Positions 19,034-32,219 of a stretch of 32,219 nt of DNA are shown one piece after another (the first letter of the stretch is position 1; the number at the start of each line of letters is the position of its first letter). The notes beneath the pieces were generated by a model. The model made no database searches, had not been told where the DNA came from, and saw only the letters and a list, made by a program, of their open reading frames with translations. This DNA comes from Spirochaetales bacterium (lineage in GTDB: Bacteria > Spirochaetota > Spirochaetia > Sphaerochaetales > Sphaerochaetaceae), in NCBI GenBank assembly GCA_012728215.1, contig JAAYFO010000153.1, forward strand, positions 1-32,219, read 5' to 3'. A program made the translations under genes and the position numbers.

Positions 19034-19071
19034 CCATGGCTCCTTTGTTTATAGCACTTGTCGCCTTTTCA

Positions 19072-19080
19072 TGGTATCAT
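19072..19080 (+). promoter_or_regulatory. Extended -10 element TGG-TATCAT upstream of the first NrnA gene
   Basis: TATCAT 19075-19080 with TGn; only 9 nt to ATG at 19090; no convincing -35. Confidence 0.35.
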
Positions 19081-19089
19081 GTAAAACCT

Positions 19090-20031
19090 ATGTTTGAGAA
19101 GGCAATTGAATTAATTAAAAAAGCAAATACAATCATCATTCATCGACACCAGAAACCTGATGGAGACGCCATCGGTGCACAGGTAGGACTGAAGAATCTG
19201 ATTCTGGATAACTATCCACAGAAGAAGGTCTATGCAGTCGGAGACAGCCCTGAACGATATGGTTTCATTGAAGGTTCAATGATGGATGAAGTCGAAGACG
19301 ATGTGTTTTTGGATGCACTTTCGATAATCCTTGACACTTCGGCACCTCAGCTGATAAGCGACAACAGATACACATCAGCATTGATGACGCTCAGAATCGA
19401 CCATCATCTCTTCGTGGAAAGGATTGCTGATGCAGAGATCGTTGATCCGAGCTTTGAGAGCTGTGCTGGAGAGATAGCGTTCATGGCAATCGAGACTGGA
19501 CTAAGTATATCCAGTATCTGCGCAAACGCATTGTACACTGGAATGGTCACGGATTCAGGACGGTTTCAGTACGATTCCACAACCAGCAGGACATTCAGCA
19601 CAGCTTCGGTTCTTCTGAAAGCCGGAGCAGACATTGCCACAATCTATTCAAGCCTTTATGTTGATGATTTTCTGATGATGAGACGGAAAGCCGAATACAC
19701 TTTGAAGATTCAGTTCACAGACAACTTGGTTGCGTATGTCTACATGACCGAAAAGGAACTTCAGCAAACAGGACTTGATGCATTTTCAGTTTCAAGGGGA
19801 ATGGTCAATACAATGGCGAACATCAAAGGAACCAAGATCTGGGTGAGTTTCACGGAAAGTAACAAAAAGGTTCTGTGCGAGCTCAGATCCAGCGGACCGG
19901 ACATCAACCCAATAGCAGTGAAATACGGTGGCGGAGGCCACAAGAAAGCAAGCGGAGCAACCATAGCCGATCATGATACGGCCATGAAGATGCTTGAGGA
20001 TCTCAATCGCATGGCAGGAGAATACAGATGA
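19090..20031 (+). CDS. DHH/DHHA1 phosphoesterase, NrnA-like (oligoribonuclease/pAp phosphatase), copy 1
   Basis: HRHQKPDGDAIGAQ, IILDTSAP, RIDHHLF, GGGGHKKASGATI; start set to MFEKAIELIKK. Confidence 0.9.
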   Translation: MFEKAIELIKKANTIIIHRHQKPDGDAIGAQVGLKNLILDNYPQKKVYAVGDSPERYGFIEGSMMDEVEDDVFLDALSIILDTSAPQLISDNRYTSALMTLRIDHHLFVERIADAEIVDPSFESCAGEIAFMAIETGLSISSICANALYTGMVTDSGRFQYDSTTSRTFSTASVLLKAGADIATIYSSLYVDDFLMMRRKAEYTLKIQFTDNLVAYVYMTEKELQQTGLDAFSVSRGMVNTMANIKGTKIWVSFTESNKKVLCELRSSGPDINPIAVKYGGGGHKKASGATIADHDTAMKMLEDLNRMAGEYR

Positions 20032-21008
20032 ACAGACAAATGATGCAAGAAATACTCGAAAAGATCAAACAACACCAGAAGATTGTGATTTCAAGACACT
20101 GGAGACCAGATGGAGATGCCGTCGGGAGTACCAAAGGACTTCAGAGGATTCTGCAGTTGACTTTTCCCGAAAAGCAGATACTTCTTATCAATGAGGATTA
20201 TGCAAGCTATCTTTCCTTCCTCGGAACAGAAGAATGTCAGATTGAAGAAAAAGACTATAGCGATGCCCTTTCAATCATTCTGGACACTGCAACAGCCAAG
20301 CGGGTATCCAACAGCTTGTTCACCAAGGCTCAAGAAATAATAAAGATCGATCATCATATCGAAGTCGAGCAGTATGGGACTCTCAACTGGGTTGAGGAGA
20401 ACTGCTCGTCGGCCTCTCAGATGATAGTCATGTTCTATCTGTCCTTCAGGGATCAGCTTAAGATTGACACAACTGGTGCCACTTATCTCTATACTGGAAT
20501 GGTGACTGATTCAGGCAGATTCAAGTTCAATGAGACAGACGGTGAAACACTACGCTGTGCCGCTGCAATGCTTGATCTGGGCGTTGACATACAGACTCTA
20601 TATGCACATCTCTATCTGACTTCCATGGAAACACTCAAGTTCAAATCCAAGGTACTGGGTGAATTCAAGCTCAGTCCCAATGGTGTCGCCTATACTTATG
20701 TGAGCCTCGATCTTCAAAAAGAATTGGGAATAACAAATGAGGATGCAAGTCTCTCAGTGTCATTTCTGGAAACAATCAAGGACAGCTTGATATGGCTGGC
20801 CTTCATAGAATGTCCTGATTCAACGATCAGAGTCAGGCTTCGCTCCAGATTCGTGACCATCAATCAGGTTGCTGAGCATTTCAATGGTGGTGGACACGCA
20901 TTCGCCTCTGGAGCAACCGTGCACAGCACAGAAGAAATGCAGGCACTGGTATCCCAAGCAGACCAGGTTCTGGGCGAGTACAAGAATACTCATGAGGGAT
21001 GGCTATGA
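20028..21008 (+). CDS. DHH/DHHA1 phosphoesterase, NrnA-like, copy 2
   Basis: SRHWRPDGDAVGST, IILDTATAK, KIDHHIEVEQYG, GGGHAFASGATV; ATGA overlap with copy 1. Confidence 0.9.
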   Translation: MNRQMMQEILEKIKQHQKIVISRHWRPDGDAVGSTKGLQRILQLTFPEKQILLINEDYASYLSFLGTEECQIEEKDYSDALSIILDTATAKRVSNSLFTKAQEIIKIDHHIEVEQYGTLNWVEENCSSASQMIVMFYLSFRDQLKIDTTGATYLYTGMVTDSGRFKFNETDGETLRCAAAMLDLGVDIQTLYAHLYLTSMETLKFKSKVLGEFKLSPNGVAYTYVSLDLQKELGITNEDASLSVSFLETIKDSLIWLAFIECPDSTIRVRLRSRFVTINQVAEHFNGGGHAFASGATVHSTEEMQALVSQADQVLGEYKNTHEGWL

Positions 21009-21721
21009 ATATATTAGTGACAAATGATGACGGAATCGAATCAGAAGGCATATTGCTCCTTGCCAGATGGGCTCGGAAGCTTGGAACTGTCACCATAGCG
21101 GCACCGAAGTTTGAACAGAGCGGCAAAAGCCATGCAATCGAACTTCACAAGAGCTTTGAAGTCAAGCATCTTCCTTCAAGGGATGGAATGGAGTTCTACC
21201 GAATCGACTCCACCCCGGCAGACTGCATAAGATATGCATTCGCCTCCATATCATCAGATTACGACCTGGTTCTGTCTGGAGTGAACAAAGGATTCAATCT
21301 GGGAACCGACATACTCTATTCAGGAACTGTCGGTGCAGTATTCGAGGCTGAATGCTTCAATACCAGGGCACTGGCAGTCTCAACCGATTCCAAATCGTTC
21401 GAAGCTTCATGGCAATGGTTTGACCGCATCCTGGATTTCATTCTTAAGAAAGACCTTTTTCAGTTTCATGGACTGTATAACATCAACATTCCGGTAGATC
21501 CCAAGGACATACTAATCACACGGCAGGGAGGTCCTTATTACAAGGACAGATTCATCAACAAAGGCGATGATATGTATCTGGCAGACGGATTCAGCGTCTA
21601 TCAGGGAACTTCAAATCTGGAAGACGATCTGGATGCAGTCATGAACGGTTATATTTCAGTATCTCCTCTTACTACAAACAGGACAAACGAGGATGCATTC
21701 AGAAAGCTGACTCAAAAATAG
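21005..21721 (+). CDS. surE: 5'/3'-nucleotidase SurE
   Basis: MNILVTNDDGIESEGI, APKFEQSGKSHAI, DSTPADCIRYAF, LVLSGVNKGFNLGTDILYSGTVGAVFEA; GAGGG 6 nt before ATG 21005 (track start 20999 is also in frame). Confidence 0.95.
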   Translation: MNILVTNDDGIESEGILLLARWARKLGTVTIAAPKFEQSGKSHAIELHKSFEVKHLPSRDGMEFYRIDSTPADCIRYAFASISSDYDLVLSGVNKGFNLGTDILYSGTVGAVFEAECFNTRALAVSTDSKSFEASWQWFDRILDFILKKDLFQFHGLYNINIPVDPKDILITRQGGPYYKDRFINKGDDMYLADGFSVYQGTSNLEDDLDAVMNGYISVSPLTTNRTNEDAFRKLTQK

Positions 21722-21795: not shown

Positions 21796-22254
21796 TTATT
21801 TCACGAATTCAATTGTGAACAACTCAACTGGGAACTGGGAAACTCCCTTGTTCTCTGCATTGATGTAGCTTGTCTTGGATGCACTGATTGTATCATAGGT
21901 CTTGTATGTGCCGAGATAGTATGCAGTTCCTGCTATGTCAGTCACTGGAATTTTGAGCTCAGCATTCCATGTGAACACTGTGGTAGGCTCAGTGGTGTAA
22001 TGCACGCCGGCCTTGCCCGCAGCATACTCATAGATCTCTGCATAGGTCTTCACGTCACCATCCATGATGAAAGCTCTGAAACCTGCATCGCTCTTCTCTA
22101 CGAAGACGTCAGCTGCCTTTGAAAGCTTGTCAGTGGTCCCGAGATACTTGCCGTTCATCGATCCATTCAAGTAAAGAGTCTTGCCAATGTTATTCTGAAC
22201 CAGAGCTACCTTGTAGGCGACACCTTCCTGAGGATTCAAAGCGGCGACTCTCTC
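21796..22254 (-). repeat. Tandem coding repeat unit 3 (C-terminal, most diverged)
   Basis: 459-nt period: anchor sequence (a/c)tgggaactggga(a/g)actcccttgttctctgc begins at about 21827, 22286 and 22745. Confidence 0.85.
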
Positions 22255-24495
22255 GACTGGGACAAGAGATACCTGACACAACATCAGTGGGAACTGGGAG
22301 ACTCCCTTGTTCTCTGCATTGATGTAGCTTGTCTTGGATGCACTGATCGTATCATAGGTCTTGTAGGTGCCAAGATAGTACTGTGCACCTGCAACGTCGG
22401 CAACAAAAATCCCGAGCTCTGCATTCCATGTGAACACGGTGACAGGCTCTGCCGTGAGATGCACGCCGGCCTTGCCTGCAGCATACTCATAGATCTCGAC
22501 ATATGTCTTGGCATCGCCATCGGCAAAGAACAGTCTGAATCCGCCTTCGACTTCCTCGATCTGAATCTCGACAGCCTTCTCGACCTTGTTGCTTGCAGCA
22601 AGATACTTTCCGTTCATCTCGCCTGTGAAGTAGAGAGTTTCTCCAAGATTTGCCTGGACAAGTGCACAGTTGTACGGCTGTCCAGCCTTGACTTCGGATA
22701 CTTCCTCGACCTTGTACAAGGCATTGGAAAGAAGAGCAAGCTCTACTGGGAACTGGGAGACTCCCTTGTTCTCTGCGTTGATGTAGCTTGTCTTGGATGC
22801 ACTGATCGTATCATAGGTCTTGTAGGTGCCAAGATAGTACTGTGCACCTGCAACGTCGGCAACAAAAATCCCGAGCTCTGCGTTCCATGTGAACACGCTG
22901 ACAGGCTCTGCTGTGAGATGCACGCCGGCCTTGCCTGCGGCATACTCATAGATTTCGACATATGTCTTGGCATCGCCATCGGCAAAGAACAGTCTGAATC
23001 CGCCATCAGCTTCCTCAATCTGCACATCCACTGCCTTGTCAGCCTTGTCGCTTGTAGCAAGATACTTTCCGTTCATCTCGCCAGTGAAGTAGAGTGTCTT
23101 TCCAAGATTACCCTGATTGAGAGCATACTTGTAGGCAACACCGACTTCCGGCTGTGAGACAGGAGTCGCGATATAGAGATCGGTAGCAGCAGCATCGACA
23201 TTGATGGTGAACACCTTGGTCTGGGTAGCATTGCCACTCTGGACCGTTGCGGTGAGACTAACCTTGGCTTCTGTCTCTGGGAGAGTGATTGCAAGCTTGG
23301 ATCCGTCAACTACGGCACAAGCATTGTCTGATGCCCATGAGATCTTGACCTGAGAGTATCCAGCACCTTCGGTAGCCAGATTCAGAACGGAATCCTCGAC
23401 AACAGCTTCCTGAACAGAAAGGTTATCAAGCTCAAATGCGATCATTCCAGCATCATCCTTTGCAGGGAGGCTCTTGTAGAGGAATGCATCCTTGCTTACA
23501 GGAGAAAGATAGAAAGCTCCGTCATAGACGCAGATCACACCAGTGACATCGGCTGTCCATCCAAGGTGGTCAGCGTGGTTCTTTATAAGTTCAGCCTGGT
23601 CAGCCTTGGTAATCGGACATACTGAAGAAGAAATCCTGAGATAGGTTTCCTTGCCGTTCAGCTTGAAGTTATAGTAACCGCTTGAAACGTTCTGTGAAGA
23701 AATCTCGACATCCTTCAAGGTGACGAGCATAGCCTGCTGGGCCACCAGATCAGCATCCTTGAGAGATTCGGCAGCGGCGAACTTGGCTGTGAAATCCACA
23801 GGTTCCGGCATCTTTGAGGAATCATCGAGAATCTCAACCACAGCATTCATGATCTCATATGTACCGCTATAGGTGTCTCTGAGACCGGTCACTCTGACAG
23901 TCATTCCTTCCTTGATTCCGCTTTCAGTCACTGGATCCTCGGCCATGTTGTACACATAGTAGCCACCATCGGCATCCTGCATGTACAGAGCATTGGATGA
24001 ATTGCCCTTTGACTTTGCAATCGTTCCAGTGACAACACCCTTCACTACGACAGTGCTGTCCTTGGCTGATTCTACATATTCCGCCCATGTAAGTTCCTTG
24101 AACTTAGGAATGGAATACTCATATGCGAGTTCCTCGCTATTGCCTTCAGCATCCGAAATGGTTGCTGTCAAGGTGTATTTGACATCTTCGCTTGTCTTGT
24201 CGTTCACATCGATTGTAACCATGTTACCATCGGCGATGACAGCCACGCTGTCAGCTGCACCACTTGTGACCACTGCATTCCAGTTCACTGTGTATGCAGT
24301 TCCGCTTATGGTTACCACACCCACTCGCTGGAAGTCGGAAGGGGTCACTGTTTTCTTATTCCTGTACATTGCATACAGGTAGTCCTTCGCTGCCGTCAGG
24401 CCTGAGTCGGCAGCAGTCCCGGCGGAACTTGCACATCCTACGAACAAGGATACACATATCACTGCCAGAACCAATAAAGACAATACTTTCTTCAT
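21796..24495 (-). CDS. Large secreted lipoprotein with Ig-like and OB-fold-like (DUF5689-like) regions and three C-terminal 153-aa repeats
   Basis: Lipobox-type signal LLVLAVICVSLFVGC; regions such as VVKGVVTGTIAKSKGNSSNALYMQDADGGYYVYN suggest an OB fold; repeat motif YYLGTYKTYDTISASKTSYINAENKGVSQFP present three times. Confidence 0.85.
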   Translation of the reverse strand: MKKVLSLLVLAVICVSLFVGCASSAGTAADSGLTAAKDYLYAMYRNKKTVTPSDFQRVGVVTISGTAYTVNWNAVVTSGAADSVAVIADGNMVTIDVNDKTSEDVKYTLTATISDAEGNSEELAYEYSIPKFKELTWAEYVESAKDSTVVVKGVVTGTIAKSKGNSSNALYMQDADGGYYVYNMAEDPVTESGIKEGMTVRVTGLRDTYSGTYEIMNAVVEILDDSSKMPEPVDFTAKFAAAESLKDADLVAQQAMLVTLKDVEISSQNVSSGYYNFKLNGKETYLRISSSVCPITKADQAELIKNHADHLGWTADVTGVICVYDGAFYLSPVSKDAFLYKSLPAKDDAGMIAFELDNLSVQEAVVEDSVLNLATEGAGYSQVKISWASDNACAVVDGSKLAITLPETEAKVSLTATVQSGNATQTKVFTINVDAAATDLYIATPVSQPEVGVAYKYALNQGNLGKTLYFTGEMNGKYLATSDKADKAVDVQIEEADGGFRLFFADGDAKTYVEIYEYAAGKAGVHLTAEPVSVFTWNAELGIFVADVAGAQYYLGTYKTYDTISASKTSYINAENKGVSQFPVELALLSNALYKVEEVSEVKAGQPYNCALVQANLGETLYFTGEMNGKYLAASNKVEKAVEIQIEEVEGGFRLFFADGDAKTYVEIYEYAAGKAGVHLTAEPVTVFTWNAELGIFVADVAGAQYYLGTYKTYDTISASKTSYINAENKGVSQFPLMLCQVSLVPVERVAALNPQEGVAYKVALVQNNIGKTLYLNGSMNGKYLGTTDKLSKAADVFVEKSDAGFRAFIMDGDVKTYAEIYEYAAGKAGVHYTTEPTTVFTWNAELKIPVTDIAGTAYYLGTYKTYDTISASKTSYINAENKGVSQFPVELFTIEFVK
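22255..22713 (-). repeat. Tandem coding repeat unit 2
   Basis: 459-nt offset; nearly identical at the nucleotide level to unit 1 over several hundred bases. Confidence 0.9.
22714..23172 (-). repeat. Tandem coding repeat unit 1
   Basis: 459-nt offset from unit 2; shares GFRLFFADGDAKTYVEIYEYAAGKAGVHLTAEPV.VFTWNAELGIFVADVAGAQYYLGTYKTYDTISASKTSYINAENKGVSQFP with unit 2. Confidence 0.9.
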
Positions 24496-24526: not shown

Positions 24527-25822
24527 TCATTCACTAATCTTCAGGTCATCTTTTCCATAAACCATCAGCTCATACGTTCCACCGAAGCTTCCCATTATCG
24601 CATCAACATCTATGGTATGACCAACCAAATCACGACCGATATCCATATTGTAAGCCATCACAACAATGTCATACCCATCGGATTCACAGTCGATAATCAC
24701 ACTTCCATTGCCAAACGAGACATCTTTCACCAGAAGAGAATCAACATGCACCGAAGTGCCCATCGCCAATTCCGCATATTGGAATTCACCTTCCTCCAAT
24801 GTCACAGTCTCATTGAGATCCGCCAGGGACACATCCTTGAACGCCCCCGAATGCCCCGAACTGATTTTCTGGATATTGCCTGGATCATCAGGTTTCATCT
24901 GCCTGTAGCCAAGACCGGAAACCTGATAGGTATCTCCAGCCTCGTAATACTGAAGCGTACCTACTATCCTTGAGCTGTTTCCCACTGCAAGGATGTTCAG
25001 ACCTTCACCACTGAGATTATAGCCGTAATAGACCGTCATCCCGAAATACAGTCCAGTCTCCTCATCGTAGTCTTCCACATAGACGGAGTTTCCTCCATTT
25101 CTGGTCACGACACCTTCAAAGGCCACTTTCACACCATTGTACTTCTCAGCGTTGCAGCGTAGCTCTCTCAGAGAGAGTTCAACCGCATCACCATAATAGA
25201 AGTCCGGGTCTTTCTGATTTGAGTAGATGTTGAGCTTCAATGCCTTGGCCTGGGCAATCGCAGCCACGCAGGCACTTCCGTATCTGTTGTTGGCAGACGA
25301 AGAGGCAATGGCAAGGCCGTTCTGAAGAATCTCGATATTCAGATTGCGATAAGGGCTGTCCTCATCAATCCGATACCATACCCACAGCAGGCATCTGCTT
25401 CCAGTCGAATCAATGTTCCAGGAAGAATCATCTGACTCGATAACTATCGAAGATGCCTGTGAAAGTCTCTGCTTTGTGAATACAGAAGCCTTCTTTCCGT
25501 AGGGTTCCACCTTACCGGTGACCTCAGGGGTATTGATTCCCAGATAACGAGCTTTCACCATCGATGAATCAGAGGCGATGAAGTGCGTAGTATCACCATC
25601 CACGAACGTCTTCACAGTGACGAACTTCTTCAGAGTCTCCGAAGACATGTCCAAGGTGACCGAAGAAGCCCAATCCTTCTCTTCTGCAACGGGTGAAGCC
25701 TTATCCGGCACTGTCTGAACGGCAACACCGGGTGTCGGCTGTACTTGATCAGACGCCATATGAGAGCAGCCGATCAGCATGCATGAGAAAAGAATCATCA
25801 GAAAAAGAAACGTTCGCTTCAT
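24527..25822 (-). CDS. Lipoprotein with staphylococcal-nuclease (SNase)-like domain plus C-terminal OB-like regions
   Basis: Lipobox MKRTFLFLMILFSCMLIGC; FVDGDTTHFI...VKARYLGINTPEVTGKVEPYGKKASVFTKQRL...DSTGSRCLLWVWYR aligns with SNase VDGDT / FRLLLVDTPET / YGPEASAFTKK / DKYGRGLAYIY. Start revised to 25822, two nt after the SBP stop. Confidence 0.88.
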   Translation of the reverse strand: MKRTFLFLMILFSCMLIGCSHMASDQVQPTPGVAVQTVPDKASPVAEEKDWASSVTLDMSSETLKKFVTVKTFVDGDTTHFIASDSSMVKARYLGINTPEVTGKVEPYGKKASVFTKQRLSQASSIVIESDDSSWNIDSTGSRCLLWVWYRIDEDSPYRNLNIEILQNGLAIASSSANNRYGSACVAAIAQAKALKLNIYSNQKDPDFYYGDAVELSLRELRCNAEKYNGVKVAFEGVVTRNGGNSVYVEDYDEETGLYFGMTVYYGYNLSGEGLNILAVGNSSRIVGTLQYYEAGDTYQVSGLGYRQMKPDDPGNIQKISSGHSGAFKDVSLADLNETVTLEEGEFQYAELAMGTSVHVDSLLVKDVSFGNGSVIIDCESDGYDIVVMAYNMDIGRDLVGHTIDVDAIMGSFGGTYELMVYGKDDLKISE

Positions 25823-25824
25823 GT

Positions 25825-27243
25825 TCAGTTCTGGTACTCGCATTCGTCAATGGCTTCCTTGAATGCTGCGTCAATCATTGCCTTTTCGTTTCCATTATCG
25901 GAAGCTGTCAGACATTTAGCCAGAAGTGATCCGACCTGGTCTCTTGCAGTTGCGGAACCGTTGAAGGCAGGAGAGGTGTAGTAAGCCTGTTCCTGAGTCA
26001 GACAGACCTTTGCACTGAGTGCTGAAATGTAGTTTCCGCCATCTGCCTTGCCGACAAATGTCTTGTAAACACTGTTGTCTGCAACGGACTTCAGTACAGG
26101 AACATAGCCTGATGCCATCGAGAATTCAGCCTGGAAATCAACAGATGTGGTCAGGTACTTGACGAACAGCCAAGATGCTATGACTTCCTGAGGATTGGCC
26201 TTTCCAAAGATACAGATGCTAGGACCTTGTGATATGACTCTAGGTCTGGCACTGTTGATCTGTGGAATAGTCGTGATACCGACTTCGAACGGGTACTTTC
26301 CATCAGCAAGAGCAGCAGGTCTCTGGTGTGTGGCACCAGCGGATGATCCGATGGACATGTAGCTTCTGGTTCCCTTCTCTGCTACAAACAGAGCCGAGGT
26401 GTATGCTCCATAGAGCTTCTGAGTGGTCAGGTAACCCTTCTGGTACCATGTTCTGAATCTCTTTACAAAATCCTTGTTCATCTCATTGTCAAACAGATAG
26501 TGGTCGCCCGAGGCACTTGTGTATGGAGATTCATTCTGCTCGCACATTGTAATGAACCAGTTGCTCTCACTGTCGTATCCAAGTGGGATGGATTCAGGAT
26601 CGATTGTCTTGATCTTGGCACAGAGCTCCTCCATCTCATCCCATGTGGTTGCAGGCTTGAGCCCGTTGGCATCAAAGAATGTCTTGTTGTAGTAGAGAAC
26701 TTCGGTGGACTTTGAGAACGGCATTGTGTACATAAGCCCATCACCGAACTGTCTTCCTTCGTTGTAGTAGCCTTCAATGAAGTCAGCCTTCTGGCTGTCT
26801 GTCAATCCAAGGATTTCCTTGGTTCCATCTGCCCGTGTCACTTCGATTTTGCTGTCGATGAGTGAATCAAGTGATGCCACGGCACCTGCCATATTGTAGA
26901 GTGCAACGTGGTCAGGGTAGCAATATGCGATGTTCGGCTGATTTCCGACTGTGATTTCAGTACTTATCTGATCACGCACATCATCATAACTTCCAACCTG
27001 CTCTGCAGCTATCGTGATATTTGGGTAAAGCTTGTTGAACTCTGGGATGTAGAGATTCAGCACTGTGCTGAGATTAGCTCCCATCGTGTGATAGAATTTC
27101 ACAGTGACCGGACTTCCATCATAGCCACCCTCCGGCACAATGAAATTTGAAACAGCGGCACTGTTTGCCTCCGCTTTTCCACCTGCGAAAACCGATGCAA
27201 CCGCCACAACGACAAGCAGCATGACCAATAATGTTCTTTTCAT
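25825..27243 (-). CDS. ABC transporter substrate-binding protein (family 1, UgpB/MalE-like)
   Basis: Signal peptide; VTVKFYHTMGANLSTVLNLYIPEFNKLYPNITI, MPFSKSTEVLYYNKTFFDANGLKPATTWDEMEELC, SSWLFVKYLT-type C-lobe sequence. Confidence 0.93.
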   Translation of the reverse strand: MKRTLLVMLLVVVAVASVFAGGKAEANSAAVSNFIVPEGGYDGSPVTVKFYHTMGANLSTVLNLYIPEFNKLYPNITIAAEQVGSYDDVRDQISTEITVGNQPNIAYCYPDHVALYNMAGAVASLDSLIDSKIEVTRADGTKEILGLTDSQKADFIEGYYNEGRQFGDGLMYTMPFSKSTEVLYYNKTFFDANGLKPATTWDEMEELCAKIKTIDPESIPLGYDSESNWFITMCEQNESPYTSASGDHYLFDNEMNKDFVKRFRTWYQKGYLTTQKLYGAYTSALFVAEKGTRSYMSIGSSAGATHQRPAALADGKYPFEVGITTIPQINSARPRVISQGPSICIFGKANPQEVIASWLFVKYLTTSVDFQAEFSMASGYVPVLKSVADNSVYKTFVGKADGGNYISALSAKVCLTQEQAYYTSPAFNGSATARDQVGSLLAKCLTASDNGNEKAMIDAAFKEAIDECEYQN

Positions 27244-31222: not shown

Positions 31223-31251
31223 TTGACTGGAACTATTTTTTGCTGTATCAT
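31223..31251 (+). promoter_or_regulatory. Promoter TTGACT-N17-TATCAT
   Basis: -35 31223-31228, -10 31246-31251; ATG of the next gene only 9 nt after the -10. Confidence 0.65.
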
Positions 31252-31260
31252 GCAATCCCT

Positions 31261-32219
31261 ATGAAACACGAAGTTCTGAAGATTGGAGTCGATGTCGACG
31301 ATGTTCTGTACCTCTGCAATCAGCATGCAATAGACATGCTATGCAAGGACAAGGAATATGCTCCTCTTAGCATAAATGACATCAGCGGATGGGGTTCTTC
31401 TGGTAAGAACACCATGCTGGACGAACGCATAGCATACTTCTCACGAGCTGATTTCGTCGAGAACCAGCCTCTGATTCCAGGTGCAAATGAGTTCATTGCC
31501 AAACTCTGCGAGCGTGGAGAGGTGATCTTTGTCACTGCTGTCGGCGGAAGCTGCATGACTGCAAGGGCACAGCGTCTTCTTCATGATTTTCCAATGGTTC
31601 CGGAACGGAACATCATGATCGGAGCAAGAAAGGATCTGCTTTCACTGGATGTGCTTCTGGATGATGGTGCTCATAACATTCTGGGTTCCCATGCGTCTTA
31701 TCCAGTACTGTTTCGCAAGCCATGGAACAACAATCTCACCGGTCTTCTTGCCGTCAACACCTATGATGACTTTCTTCGCCTGATTGATCAGATCATTGGT
31801 TATCGTCAGAATCGCGAATTCAGCCTTAAGAACGGAGGTGTGCTATGCCTGGTAGGGCCTTCTGGTTCAGGAAAGTCCGAACTTACACGCAGTCTGATGG
31901 AAGATCAAGTCTTCTGCAGGCCTCTTACATGCACGACAAGATGCAGAAGGGAGTCCGAGCCTGAGGAGTATCATTTCGTTTCACGTGACAGCTTTCAAAA
32001 TGGGCAGGCAAATGGGCGTTTTCTGGAAACGACTGTGTATGGTGGCGAGTACTATGGCGCGGAGCGGAAAGCGGTGGACGATGTGGTGAACAGTGGAAGG
32101 ATTGCTGTGATGCCTATTGATATCTGCGGAGCAATCTCGATAAAGAATGCGTATCCTGAACAATCAGCTCTGGTTTTTCTCCAACGTGGACGCTCTGCAG
32201 TGCTGAGAAGCATTCTGAA
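31261..32219 (+). CDS. Fusion protein: N-terminal 5'(3')-deoxyribonucleotidase-like HAD domain + C-terminal guanylate-kinase domain (3' truncated by window)
   Basis: Continuous frame, no stop to the window end. N-term IGVDVDDVLYLCNQHAIDML, VIFVTAVG, DVLLDDGAHNI (HAD motifs); C-term GGVLCLVGPSGSGKSELTRSL, RPLTCTTRCRRESEPEEYHFVSRDSF, GRFLETTVYGGEYYGAERKAVDDVVNSGRIAVMPIDICGAISIK (guanylate kinase motifs). Not in the ORF track. Confidence 0.88.
   Translation, partial: MKHEVLKIGVDVDDVLYLCNQHAIDMLCKDKEYAPLSINDISGWGSSGKNTMLDERIAYFSRADFVENQPLIPGANEFIAKLCERGEVIFVTAVGGSCMTARAQRLLHDFPMVPERNIMIGARKDLLSLDVLLDDGAHNILGSHASYPVLFRKPWNNNLTGLLAVNTYDDFLRLIDQIIGYRQNREFSLKNGGVLCLVGPSGSGKSELTRSLMEDQVFCRPLTCTTRCRRESEPEEYHFVSRDSFQNGQANGRFLETTVYGGEYYGAERKAVDDVVNSGRIAVMPIDICGAISIKNAYPEQSALVFLQRGRSAVLRSIL

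Follow-up and report, generated by a model that had tools for sequence, protein, structure and literature searches.

The end of this contig raises the question of whether a deoxyribonucleotidase and a guanylate kinase are really joined there in one polypeptide and, if so, what such a protein would do for a spirochete. The window, by which we mean the whole stretch of 32,219 nucleotides analyzed, is all of contig G000:C212 (assembly of 1.76 Mb in 212 contigs, 97% complete), and the gene is therefore cut by the contig end. Gene order, genome sizes, and the grouping of the relatives point to Spirochaetia and probably to Sphaerochaetaceae. As originally predicted, the frame that begins at ATG 31261 stays open as far as the window reaches: translation of the plus strand gives 319 codons without a stop up to 32219, the last position of the contig. 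A TTG at 31240 is a possible upstream start; homologs favor the ATG. From full-length homologs we estimate that ~50 codons and the stop lie beyond the contig, and a search of the rest of the assembly for the missing C terminus (~50 aa) returned nothing, a weak negative given a short query without a positive control.

Profile searches assigned both halves to the families that the original prediction had named. The window protein matched NT5C (PF06941) over residues 8 to 175 with 59 bits (E 7e-16; Pfam cutoff, 24.8), a score of 60.7 bits in the search of the window genome and of 53.6 to 60.4 bits for homologs, and the N terminus did not fall to an unrelated HAD family. Residues 195 to 308 matched Guanylate_kin (PF00625) with 68.2 bits (E 1e-18; Pfam cutoff, 25.2). 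Both families scored well over their cutoffs in all fusion members tested. The features, all on the plus strand of the window, are as follows.

31261..32219, plus strand: NT5C-Guanylate_kin fusion gene, 5' part; open frame running into the contig end, with homologs of 367 to 383 aa
31282..31785, plus strand: NT5C (PF06941) HAD phosphatase domain, residues 8 to 175; Pfam, 59 bits
31291..31305, plus strand: HAD motif I, DVDDV, with Asp11 as nucleophile and Asp13 as acid/base by homology; D11, D13, and D14 invariant in 6/6
31534..31536, plus strand: HAD motif II, Thr92; invariant in 6/6
31630..31632, plus strand: HAD motif III, Lys124; invariant in 6/6
31660..31665, plus strand: HAD motif IV, Asp134-Asp135, Mg2+ site by homology; invariant in 6/6
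31786..31842, plus strand: interdomain linker, residues 176 to 194, variable in length and sequence in the six-member alignment
31843..32219, plus strand: Guanylate_kin (PF00625) domain, cut by the contig end; Pfam, 68.2 bits, sole PF00625 match in the genome
31855..31878, plus strand: P-loop GPSGSGKS, residues 199 to 206; G199, P200, G202, G204, and K205 invariant in 6/6

A gene lying at a contig end in a fragmented metagenome-type assembly invites the suspicion that assembly or annotation has joined two genes. This reading is almost certainly wrong, since five independent genomes and a gut contig share this fusion, with the linker at the same place. A fusion profile run over 141 genomes drawn from the family (threshold, E<=1e-6) found the fusion in 5/141, namely the window genome (genus g1), G010, G027, G592 (g9), and G625 (g8), and found no standalone relative of either half at that threshold in these 141 genomes. 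The copies in G010, G027, G592, and G625 are full length (367 to 371 aa), carry both domains, and have no internal stops, and so the stop that could have broken the full-length gene is not seen in the four intact family homologs. When G027 is compared with G592, the phosphatase half has a dN/dS of 0.07 and the kinase half one of 0.11; both halves are under purifying selection. The fusion is a real two-domain protein, and the intact copies elsewhere exclude chance joining.

Spread outside the phylum was surveyed in phage and plasmid collections, where MT839612.1 (L047), a 4.2-kb human-fecal record, holds a distant full-length fusion of 383 aa that is 38% identical to the G010 protein over 96% and 34% identical to the window protein. 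The neighbors of its gene on either side, a LacI/GntR-type regulator and araA, which encodes L-arabinose isomerase, mark the DNA as bacterial despite the label "Bacteriophage sp."; the record is evidently a fragment of a bacterial chromosome mislabeled as phage. A phage origin of the fusion was considered and rejected, as the only "phage" record with the full fusion is this evidently bacterial one. Searches with defense-system models returned P-loop background matches only.

The phosphatase half resembles the 5'(3')-deoxyribonucleotidases (cytosolic and mitochondrial dNT-1/2, the Staphylococcus protein 3bwv, and YorS of phage SPbeta), with a profile match over the whole domain and shared HAD motifs I to IV; by sequence criteria, it is an NT5C domain. 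Its best PDB relative is 3bwv, and its nearest annotated standalone relatives are phage YorS-type proteins. Unlike members of that family, to which it is only ~25 to 31% identical, it is joined to a kinase domain. In an alignment of the six fusion members (window numbering), the HAD catalytic set D11, D13, T92, K124, D134, and D135 is invariant in 6/6, as are the P-loop residues of the other half, so that the loss of catalytic residues in both domains, which would have undermined the original prediction, is not seen. A single-sequence AlphaFold model of the window protein had a pLDDT of 33.8, too low to be of use.

The kinase half shares with Gmk (PF00625, TIGR03263), in the spirochetal fusions, the P-loop, the arginines that contact the GMP phosphate, the tyrosines, and the guanine-specifying Glu and Asp. 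Residue numbers for Gmk are those of E. coli. The spirochetal members retain R227, R230, Y237, and Y265 (E. coli Arg42/45, Tyr54, and Tyr82); in the gut homolog L047, Arg42 is replaced by Glu and Tyr54 is also lost. The pair E256/D287, equivalent to E. coli Glu73/Asp104, is invariant in 6/6. In mouse guanylate kinase, the corresponding E72/D103 is the guanine-specificity pair, and its exchange yields an adenylate kinase (PMC4177761). The half nevertheless differs from Gmk in reading PxDxCGAI for (D/E)xDxQGA, with Cys for the Gln of DvQG and Pro where Gmk has an acidic residue two positions ahead of Asp104; the "PPS" segment is replaced as well. Lid residues Arg134 and Arg138 (E. coli) are lost in every full-length fusion member, whereas 18/18 ordinary Gmks from sister classes, our comparison set, keep both; the equivalent of Arg149 is the only one of the three lid arginines kept in the full-length members. 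The scores of the fusion, 83 to 93 bits against the NCBIfam TIGR03263 equivalog cutoff of 160 (83.4 for the truncated window protein and 92.7 for full-length G010; 44.3 for L047), and the placement of the kinase half C-terminal to a HAD phosphatase set this half further apart. Judged on these residues and scores, the C-terminal half is a distinct guanylate-kinase-like subfamily and not Gmk proper; it probably still binds a guanine nucleotide. Given the lost lid arginines and the Pro two positions ahead of Asp104, its kinase activity may be weak or directed at another substrate.

No fixed neighbors accompany the fusion gene across genomes. In the window, the gene is oriented divergently to an RDD-family membrane gene, the first of an ABC-transporter block; G002 and G009 have this block but not the fusion beside it. 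In G625 the gene stands alone, adjoining an M20-type peptidase gene. In g9 (G010, G027, and G592) it lies 9 to 23 bp upstream of ligA as an insertion that separates ligA from xanthine-dehydrogenase-like genes; in relatives lacking the fusion, these genes and ligA adjoin.

L048, 5233-6336: g9 fusion gene, upstream of ligA
L049, 7836-8951: g9 fusion gene, upstream of ligA
L120, 8109-9224: g9 fusion gene, upstream of ligA

The fusion is scattered over three genera and is not in the two congeners of the window genome examined. This patchiness, together with the changing insertion sites and the occurrence of the RDD-ABC block without it, is the behavior of an accessory gene and suggests that the fusion is accessory and horizontally moved. 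The G+C content of the gene agrees with that of the host in all three genomes compared, which indicates that acquisition was not recent. The ligA operon was set aside as a general clue to function, as the linkage is limited to one genus.

Elsewhere on the window contig, the plus strand at 19036-21721 carries two overlapping tandem DHH-family phosphoesterase-like (NrnA-like) genes followed by a SurE-like 5'-nucleotidase gene that overlaps the second of them, a nucleotide-turnover cluster on the same contig as the fusion. At 21796-24495 on the minus strand, an 899-aa lipoprotein-like protein has a C-terminal half that contains three near-identical repeats of ~120 aa.

The fusion is the sole PF00625 match in the 97% complete window genome, and the separate gmk that the original prediction had proposed to look for is not found there by PF00625. 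The absence extends well beyond this genome: in a profile search, PF00625 matched in 1/249 genomes of the class, the window's own, and the 98% complete congener G002 is without any PF00625 protein, whereas 116 genomes of the phylum from outside the class do have a match. A search of this kind found cytidylate kinase in 61/61 relatives, so that the absence of PF00625 is not technical. Within the family, the only other PF00625 match is a C-terminal piece of Gmk, encoded by a 90-aa open frame where a 1.8-kb contig ends (L010 / L071; G036:C304, 2-253), possibly a contaminant or a gene cut by the contig end. Lack of gmk is thus a trait of the whole class, and its absence from the window genome does not make the fusion an essential Gmk.

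In the sister classes, gmk follows yicC in 19/25 distinct loci by our count, which excludes g98, a genus that lacks the linkage. All six class genomes inspected, the window genome included, instead have an archaeal-type "(d)CMP kinase" of ~180 aa directly after yicC, in addition to a normal cmk; the four scored reached 120 to 145 bits with TIGR02173 (cutoff, 102).

G000:C115, about 25552-26079 (L122, 1053-1580): yicC-adjacent archaeal-type kinase of the window genome
L123, L124, L125, L126, and L127: further loci with the yicC-adjacent kinase

From this gene order we infer that the archaeal-type kinase has replaced gmk in place. In Borrelia, the counterpart is presumably BB_0819, going by gene order. 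The archaea in our control set had no PF00625 match, yet the cytidylate kinase profile matched them, and the archaeal GMP kinase gene has been described as unidentified (PMC4177761). The yicC-adjacent kinase is therefore put forward as a candidate GMP kinase of spirochetes and possibly also of archaea. As a separate observation, many genomes of the class (G003, G005, G013, G018, G022, G033, G043, G052, and G060) encode cytidylate kinase within open frames of ~800 to 930 aa, which suggests a Cmk fused to another protein; ribosomal protein S1 as the partner is a guess.

What, then, would the two joined domains do? We lean, with somewhat more confidence than doubt, toward an accessory, horizontally scattered two-domain nucleotide enzyme that combines an NT5C-type phosphatase with a guanine-nucleotide kinase-like domain. 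An alternative, which we regard as rather unlikely, is that the guanylate-kinase-like half has given up kinase activity and senses guanine nucleotides, thereby controlling the attached phosphatase in the manner of the GK domains of MAGUK proteins. The loss of two lid arginines in all full-length members and the replacement of the "PPS" segment and of the DvQG Gln are consistent with such a role, as is the faster evolution of the kinase half (dN of 0.31, against 0.17 for the phosphatase half, between G010 and G027). MAGUK GK domains, however, are binding modules that have lost the P-loop, whereas the P-loop Gly and Lys residues and the guanine-site Glu and Asp are invariant in 6/6 fusion members.

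The pairing of a HAD phosphatase with a P-loop kinase in one chain is also the layout of T4 Pnkp and PNKP, and with ligA directly downstream in three genomes, one may picture a nucleic acid end-healing system in which the HAD half would clear 3'-phosphates, the P-loop half would phosphorylate 5' ends, and LigA would seal. We consider this very improbable: the HAD and kinase families of the fusion differ from those of PNKP, profile searches of the PDB returned Gmk and NT5C structures and no PNKP structure for either half, and the acceptor site is of the Gmk type. Moreover, the ligA neighborhood is confined to one genus; the window genome has its ligA on another contig, C117, where the fusion is absent, and the neighbors in G625 are different. 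A role as the housekeeping GMP kinase, regained as a fused gene after the loss of gmk, would fit the only PF00625 protein of a nearly complete genome. This is very improbable, because nearly all relatives live without a PF00625 protein, most of them without the fusion as well, the gmk slot after yicC is taken by another kinase in every class genome inspected, and the lid arginines are lost; with an archaeal-type kinase in that slot, the fusion is unlikely to be the housekeeping enzyme.

The favored two-domain enzyme would adjust a small nucleotide pool. Its phosphatase half would strip an unwanted (d)NMP of its 5'-phosphate, with Asp11 as the nucleophile, Asp13 as the acid/base, Thr92 and Lys124 as further catalytic residues, and Asp134/135 for Mg2+, and its kinase half would use ATP to phosphorylate GMP, dGMP, or a close guanine analog, held by Arg227, Arg230, Tyr237, Glu256, Tyr265, and Asp287. 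The fusion, its conservation, the retained catalytic residues, the purifying selection, and the patchy distribution are observations; what each half catalyzes, on which substrate, and to what end in the cell is our inference. The original prediction went further and placed opposing reactions on one nucleotide pool; the domains and their fusion stand, but that the two halves work against each other on a single (d)GMP pool is possible rather than established, the kinase being divergent and short of two lid arginines. A precedent for the pairing exists in yorR-yorS of phage SPbeta, where a P-loop (deoxy)nucleotide kinase gene lies 8 bp from a deoxyribonucleotidase gene; there, in contrast, the two genes are separate, and YorR is annotated as thymidylate kinase type. 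No published description of an NT5C-Guanylate_kin architecture was found among the open PMC papers searched, in line with the original view that it is not a standard one, and the fusion is apparently undescribed.

A bolder picture, which we hold to be somewhat less likely than not, is of a bifunctional nucleotidase/guanylate-kinase-like enzyme that would couple the breakdown of one nucleotide to the activation of a guanine nucleotide. It would have spread between gut spirochetes and one or more other gut bacteria, and the spirochetal class would have had its ordinary Gmk displaced by a kinase of archaeal type. Housing a phosphatase and a nucleotide kinase on a single polypeptide would offer a compact means of steering a nucleotide pool. 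The class Spirochaetia as a whole is without the standard guanylate kinase, and naming the yicC-adjacent kinase as its candidate replacement bears on the missing GMP kinase gene of archaea and on the use of GMP and dGMP in Borrelia, for which a published model gives the role of dGMP kinase to adenylate kinase (PMC10734484). The proposed displacement of gmk by an archaeal-type kinase, a by-product of this analysis, may matter more than the fusion itself.
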